DNA from: Caulobacteraceae bacterium
Lineage (GTDB): Bacteria > Pseudomonadota > Alphaproteobacteria > Caulobacterales > Caulobacteraceae
Assembly (NCBI GenBank): GCA_025450315.1
Contig: JANWHQ010000091.1
Coordinates: forward strand, 1-64,000
Length of the DNA stretch: 64,000 nucleotides
Reading direction: 5' to 3'
The translations under genes were made by a program, and so were the position numbers. Each line of letters begins with the position of its first letter. Positions within the stretch are counted from its first letter, which is position 1. Shown one piece after another: positions 9,266 through 9,862 of this stretch. Below the pieces are notes generated by a model, which searched no databases, was not told the origin of the DNA, and saw only the letters and a program-made list of their open reading frames with translations.

Positions 9266-9341
9266 TGGCTCCCCGGGTAGGACTCGAACCTACGACAAGT
9301 CGGTTAACAGCCGACTGCTCTACCAGCTGAGCTACCGGGGA
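9266..9341 (-). tRNA. tRNA-Asn (GTT), CCA encoded
   Basis: Minus strand TCCCCGGTAGCTCAGCTGGTAGAGCAGTCGGCTGTTAACCGACTTGTCGTAGGTTCGAGTCCTACCCGGGGAGCCA; cloverleaf folds with GTT anticodon. Confidence 0.96.
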
Positions 9342-9407: not shown

Positions 9408-9436
9408 AAAAAATAGCCCGGCGCGAGGCCGGGCTT
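9408..9436 (-). terminator. Rho-independent terminator
   Basis: Minus strand AAGCCCGGCCTCGCGCCGGGCTATTTTTT. Confidence 0.8.
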
Positions 9437-9476
9437 GAAGGAGTTGGTGATGGTGGGGTGTCTTCGGAGAAGACAT
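9408..9476 (-). ncRNA. Candidate CtrA-controlled small RNA (approx. 65-70 nt)
   Basis: 5' hairpin GTCTTC-TCC-GAAGAC, C-rich linker ACCCCACCATCACCAACTCCTTC, terminator; preceded by TTAA-N7-TTAA. Confidence 0.45.
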
Positions 9477-9497
9477 CGTTAACTTGAGACGAGCCGG

Positions 9498-9512
9498 TTA
9501 ATCCGAGGTTAA
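9498..9512. promoter_or_regulatory. Putative CtrA box
   Basis: TTAATCCGAGGTTAA = exact TTAA-N7-TTAA. Confidence 0.6.
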
Positions 9513-9535: not shown

Positions 9536-9862
9536 TCAGCAACGGTGCGCGTGCGCGCCGATCTGGTGTCCGATGACCGCCCCGCCGCCGGCGCCCAGCA
9601 CCGTGCCCAGCCCGCGCGAGCCGCGGCCGGCCAGCTGGCTGCCGATGATCCCGCCGCCGATCGCGCCCAGCACCGTGCCGGTGTTGGCGGAGGCGTGGTG
9701 CTCGGCCCAGCAGTCGCGCGCGTAGGCGTGGCGATAGCCGGTCCGCACATAGTGATGACGATAATGATGGTGATGGCGCACATAGGCGGTCGCGGGGCTC
9801 GCGGCCGAGAACAGCATCGCCGCCGCGCCGAGCGCGCCGATGGCGGTCTTGAGATTGGTCAT
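9536..9862 (-). CDS. Glycine-zipper (2TM-like) outer-membrane/periplasmic protein
   Basis: Signal peptide; GTVLGAIGGGIIGSQLAGRGSRGLGTVLGAGGGAVIGHQIG. Confidence 0.85.
   Translation of the reverse strand: MTNLKTAIGALGAAAMLFSAASPATAYVRHHHHYRHHYVRTGYRHAYARDCWAEHHASANTGTVLGAIGGGIIGSQLAGRGSRGLGTVLGAGGGAVIGHQIGAHAHRC

Follow-up and report, generated by a model that had tools for sequence, protein, structure and literature searches.

The window analysed here, a 64-kb (64,000-nt) stretch of a Caulobacteraceae genome, contains a predicted small RNA (sRNA) gene of 67 nt on the minus strand (9408..9474), lying between a glycine-zipper gene upstream (9536..9862, minus strand) and a conserved tRNA-Asn(GTT) gene downstream (9266..9341, minus strand). 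From a predicted start at 9474, the unit comprises, all on the minus strand, a 5′ hairpin GUCUUC-UCC-GAAGAC (9460..9474), a linker ACCCCACCAUCACCAACUCCUUC (9437..9459) that holds the conserved contact segment, and an intrinsic terminator (9408..9435) with a GC-rich stem at 9415-9435 and a T6 run at 9408-9413. Folding recovered both the hairpin and the terminator and left the linker unpaired (unpaired probability of 1.0). The original prediction had described a minus-strand unit of just this composition, which the sequence confirms. An exact TTAA-N7-TTAA CtrA box had also been claimed at 9498-9512, which we confirmed: the full box TTAACCTCGGATTAA (9498..9512, minus strand; −38 to −24 from the predicted start) is the sole exact copy in the window, where 0.01 would be expected. 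A putative −10 element (A−11, T−7) occupies 9481..9486 (minus strand). The additional TTAA at 9479..9482 (minus strand; −8 to −5 of the predicted start) is present as described but is not conserved: only 8 of the 132 homologues have a TTAA that close to the RNA (15 nt or less). As had been stated, no ORF explains the unit; an ORF beginning at 9476 and crossing both the sRNA and the tRNA was rejected as mechanical, since relatives keep neither its ATG nor its frame.

A first search with a 181-nt query matched 22 of 60 relatives, and the relatives extracted shared a core of GTCTTC-yTT-GAAGACACCCCACCATCACCGACTT plus the terminator. Scanning named genomes for this pattern returned 71 stretches, mostly from Caulobacter and Phenylobacterium, and also from Hyphomonas, Ponticaulis, and Hirschia. 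The window RNA scored 83.1 bits with R1, a covariance model of the transcript alone, and 79.7 bits with R2. Of 390 Caulobacteraceae genomes, 316 gave an R1 match (267 of 311 among good genomes), and the RNA with its full motif was also present in seven other families sampled from the class (f2, f8, f9, f95, f120, f127, and f141). Conservation of the segment in Caulobacterales, which the original prediction had proposed as a check, is evident from these family genomes and extends to other families; the sRNA is also kept in an AT-rich relative from a further family of the order (L018), and in the order of f9 it was found in 58 of 60 good genomes. The alignment contained 94 cells changed on both sides of a pair, versus 14.9 after shuffling. 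Over 88 distinct sequences, 97% of hairpin cells were paired, both-sided changes occurred in seven of the eight terminator pairs, and the linker columns were near-invariant across homologues. One element of the original description did not survive this comparison: the “anti-SD-like CUCC” is not conserved, relatives having CCGACUU, and the contact segment that they keep is instead GACACCCCACCAUCACC, with ACACCCCACCAUCACC as the conserved part.

Some matches were discarded. A Listeria rustica match of the pattern scan (L026:3561-3619) has neither hairpin nor terminator, and the other conserved-DNA matches of the first search (the glnA-like coding matches L002, L020, and L025, and also L022 and L024) align to the linker and terminator only; all were attributed to chance. 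Class-level matches below about 41 bits have neither the GACACCC core nor the box and are terminator look-alikes. L061 and L083 concern an Opitutaceae-binned MAG contig (ACE_VER3) that is probably misbinned, its sRNA region being identical to that of a Phenylobacterium MAG from the same project. Most listed genomes of genus g21 gave no match although neighbouring genera match, possibly through loss or strong divergence. Two matches per genome were seen in G671, G748, G778, G858, G859, and G864, which may be second copies, assembly duplicates, or chance. The plasmid search found no sRNA on plasmids. Two IMG/VR viral contigs (L193:10758-10783 and L194:503-529) carry the sRNA and box beside tRNA-Asn, one of them also with tRNA-Cys; they look like host DNA, or else an element integrated near these tRNA genes.

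Gene neighborhoods were likewise conserved. A tRNA-Asn gene lies on the same strand within 400 nt of the sRNA in 113 of 132 distinct homologues, and a tRNA-Cys gene is also found upstream in 38 of the 132, including the distant families inspected. The order tRNA-Cys, sRNA, tRNA-Asn is probably ancestral, and the glycine-zipper gene adjoins the sRNA only locally. At L146, in the C. vibrioides-like genome G661, two consecutive tRNA-Asn(GTT) genes follow the sRNA.

Because neither R1 nor R2 contains a promoter, the upstream region provides an independent test of the box. We analysed 73 distinct upstream regions that had not been chosen for the box, a few loci having first been found with DNA covering it; those of the distant families f8, f9, f95, f120, f127, and f141 had been found by the transcript model alone. 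Exact TTAA-N7-TTAA occurred in 57 of these 73 unselected homologues and a version with at most one mismatch in 71, 38–40 nt before the hairpin, while spacers of 5, 6, 8, or 9 nt gave 0–2 matches and 200 shuffles gave no box. If the hairpin base is taken as +1, 88% of the 132 homologues have A at −11, and 83% have T at −7, which fits a −10 element. We placed the predicted start at 9474 on the strength of the fixed box distance, the A−11/T−7 pattern, and the published position of CtrA motifs, since activating full motifs start near −35, and at −39 at ctrA P2 (PMC4287350). The 5′ nucleotide of the window box lies 38 nt before the predicted start, within this −35/−39 placement. CtrA half sites over the −10 element are repressor sites in Caulobacter (PMC4287350). 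Collectively, the conserved RNA, the fixed box, the −10-like pattern, synteny, and Rfam homology support the proposed sRNA gene under a CtrA-type box, and we infer that the window sRNA would be expressed and its box bound by CtrA.

RF01519 (CC0196) was the sole Rfam family with a convincing match here, aligning to 9470-9412 over model positions 1-58 of 58 (32.4 bits, E = 7.4e-6). This score, obtained both locally and genome-wide, does not reach the gathering score of 35 bits. The same model scores 95 bits in the Caulobacter genomes G661 and G688, at loci that have the box and tRNA-Asn, and matches the named control Caulobacter vibrioides; it gave no match in the other families tested. R1 and RF01519 match the same coordinates in G661, G688, G674, G631, G662, G678, and G621, and tRNA-Asn follows the sRNA both in the window and in G661. 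Because the two models coincide in Caulobacter, we regard the window gene as homologous to CC0196 despite the missed threshold. The RNAs have the hairpin, seed, and terminator in common and align over the full model length; they differ in that the window RNA scores under gathering. Judged by the R1, R2, and RF01519 scores together with covariation, the predicted sRNA gene is a homologue of CC0196 and is not new as a gene, being already listed for Caulobacter; the databases previously had just a narrow Caulobacter version of this RNA. Caulobacter sRNAs were reportedly described in 2008 by Landt et al. in Mol Microbiol. In the literature searched, no work on a promoter, target, or function came up under the name CC0196, and neither that name nor the core sequence was found there. 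CCNA_R0004 of C. crescentus NA1000 is probably the CC0196 gene, judged by position only, with an estimated fit to the gene number. It is listed as “Cell cycle regulated”, with a start at 210993 on the minus strand, one CtrA half site, low and noisy start-site counts, and published target predictions (CpaE and maf) that do not include tacA (PMC5988900), and the sRNAs listed as Hfq-bound during early stationary phase do not include it (PMC11005374).

Turning to targets, a search for the complement of the 16-base core with at most two mismatches gave no repeatedly matched gene by itself. It yielded one start-proximal site, upstream of a response-regulator gene in G014, which led to tacA; since this site had been singled out among about 40 places examined, the discovery genome was left out of the counts. 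We fetched orthologues of the G014 regulator from 28 genomes, with one strong match per genome, and nearly all Caulobacteraceae orthologues carried an sRNA-core complement upstream of the start codon. In this genome, CCCACCAUCACC (9446..9457, minus strand) is a perfect complement of the tacA 5′ UTR at G000:C87:2496-2507, where GGTGATGGTGGG, at −21 to −10 of tacA, pairs perfectly with all 12 positions of 9446-9457. This site outranks all 502 other gene starts, and the other non-self copies of the 12-mer in this genome all lie inside genes. With the discovery genome excluded, 19 of the 24 genomes tested placed tacA in the top 5% when scored against 502 gene starts; for one genome per genus across 11 genera, the Fisher p, uncorrected for phylogeny, was about 2e-13. 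The species’ own sRNAs paired with tacA better than swapped sRNAs did (p = 0.001). Pairing sites span −29 to −2 across genomes, and the pairing segment shifts by species, moving to the hairpin 3′ arm in G674 and G025. Complementarity was weak or missing in G018, G002, and G023, and in the other families tested it was not found, G062 being borderline and G198 lacking it; because of these cases, we treat the tacA link as a trait at the level of the family. An accessible, conserved part of the sRNA thus has its complement close to the start codon of a conserved target, which supports the trans-acting architecture originally predicted and suggests that the sRNA may pair with tacA in the cell and repress it.

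The regulator has receiver, sigma-54 activator, and Fis-type domains, and in the C. vibrioides-like genome G661 it is 488 residues long with aspartate 54 in the receiver. It scores below the cut-offs for NtrC and FlbD. Our assignment of a TacA-type regulator draws on D54, the length, and the single strong match per genome rather than on sequence comparison with a record named TacA. A D54E mutant of TacA is named in PMC7010744, in which tacA is a direct CtrA target and TacA is controlled through CtrA-dependent transcription, the ShkA phosphorelay, and proteolysis. A TTAA half site lies near −113 of tacA in most orthologues; the upstream region of tacA in this genome yielded none.

Comparison across genomes establishes a conserved RNA, a fixed box and −10 geometry, synteny, and tacA complementarity in Caulobacteraceae. 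We consider it probable that the window encodes a CtrA-activated trans-acting sRNA that pairs with the tacA 5′ UTR and represses translation. The gene would be transcribed leftwards from about 9474 to 9408, activated by phosphorylated CtrA at the full box, and the sRNA would be produced when CtrA is active. As a trans-acting base-pairing regulator, it would use its unpaired ACACCCCACCAUCACC, in some species together with the hairpin 3′ arm, to pair just upstream of the tacA start codon, most likely blocking ribosome entry. Because tacA is itself a CtrA target, CtrA would switch on the gene and, through the sRNA, hold back its translation; such an incoherent feed-forward loop would limit or delay TacA.

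Four other explanations were weighed against this one. Chance assembly of box, hairpin, and terminator is barely credible: each part is common alone, but conservation over several families, covariation, and fixed spacing refute it. We give very little credence to the idea that the segment merely serves the glycine-zipper gene as 3′ UTR and terminator, or tRNA-Asn as a leader. It does sit between these two genes, all three sharing one strand, but a conserved box and −10 as well as a terminator belong to the element itself, its linker is nearly invariant, and distant families have tRNA-Cys as the upstream neighbour; since the upstream gene varies while the box and RNA stay together, we rule out a 3′ UTR of the 9536-9862 gene.

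The remaining alternatives accept a CtrA-controlled sRNA and concern what it does. Its main target might not be tacA, the RNA acting on other mRNAs or binding a protein, which we judge unlikely while giving it more weight than any other rival. The RNA is indeed kept in families without visible tacA complementarity (G198), and its core is conserved far beyond the need of one target, yet in 19 of 24 genomes complementarity recurs at the start of a single orthologous gene, and own sRNAs outperform swapped ones. It is rather improbable that the sRNA activates tacA translation by opening 5′ UTR structure in a coherent loop, as proposed for the sRNA CcnA on ctrA; in the free UTR, part of the site is base-paired (mean unpaired 0.25–0.49), but its position at −29 to −2, where ribosomes bind, favours occlusion. 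Repression of tacA through pairing remains our preferred reading for Caulobacteraceae. Seen more broadly, we lean slightly towards an ancient alphaproteobacterial RNA that would always be CtrA-switched, that Caulobacteraceae would use to restrain TacA, and that would have another target outside the family.

EcpR1 of Sinorhizobium meliloti has dnaA and gcrA as targets. Like the window RNA in its proposed role, EcpR1 is described as a trans-sRNA of an alphaproteobacterium that affects the cell cycle (PMC4414408); it differs in being stress-induced. CcnA (CCNA_R0094) likewise has a CtrA box, and its accessible CCCC pairs close to the start codons of cell-cycle regulators, but it is a long structured RNA of 182 nt from the replication origin that targets ctrA and gcrA (PMC8959179). 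The window RNA was accordingly rejected as CcnA, being a 67-nt unit between the glycine-zipper gene and tRNA-Asn. Among CtrA-linked sRNAs in the literature searched, targets had been described for CcnA only, and the sRNA reported here joins a full CtrA box to an sRNA across a much greater evolutionary distance. These results show Rfam's CC0196 model to be too narrow; the present alignments could be used to widen it. The analysis also offers one definite candidate target in the best-studied bacterial cell-cycle circuit. If the proposed pairing is true, TacA would be subject to post-transcriptional control, adding an RNA arm to the swarmer-to-stalked transition.
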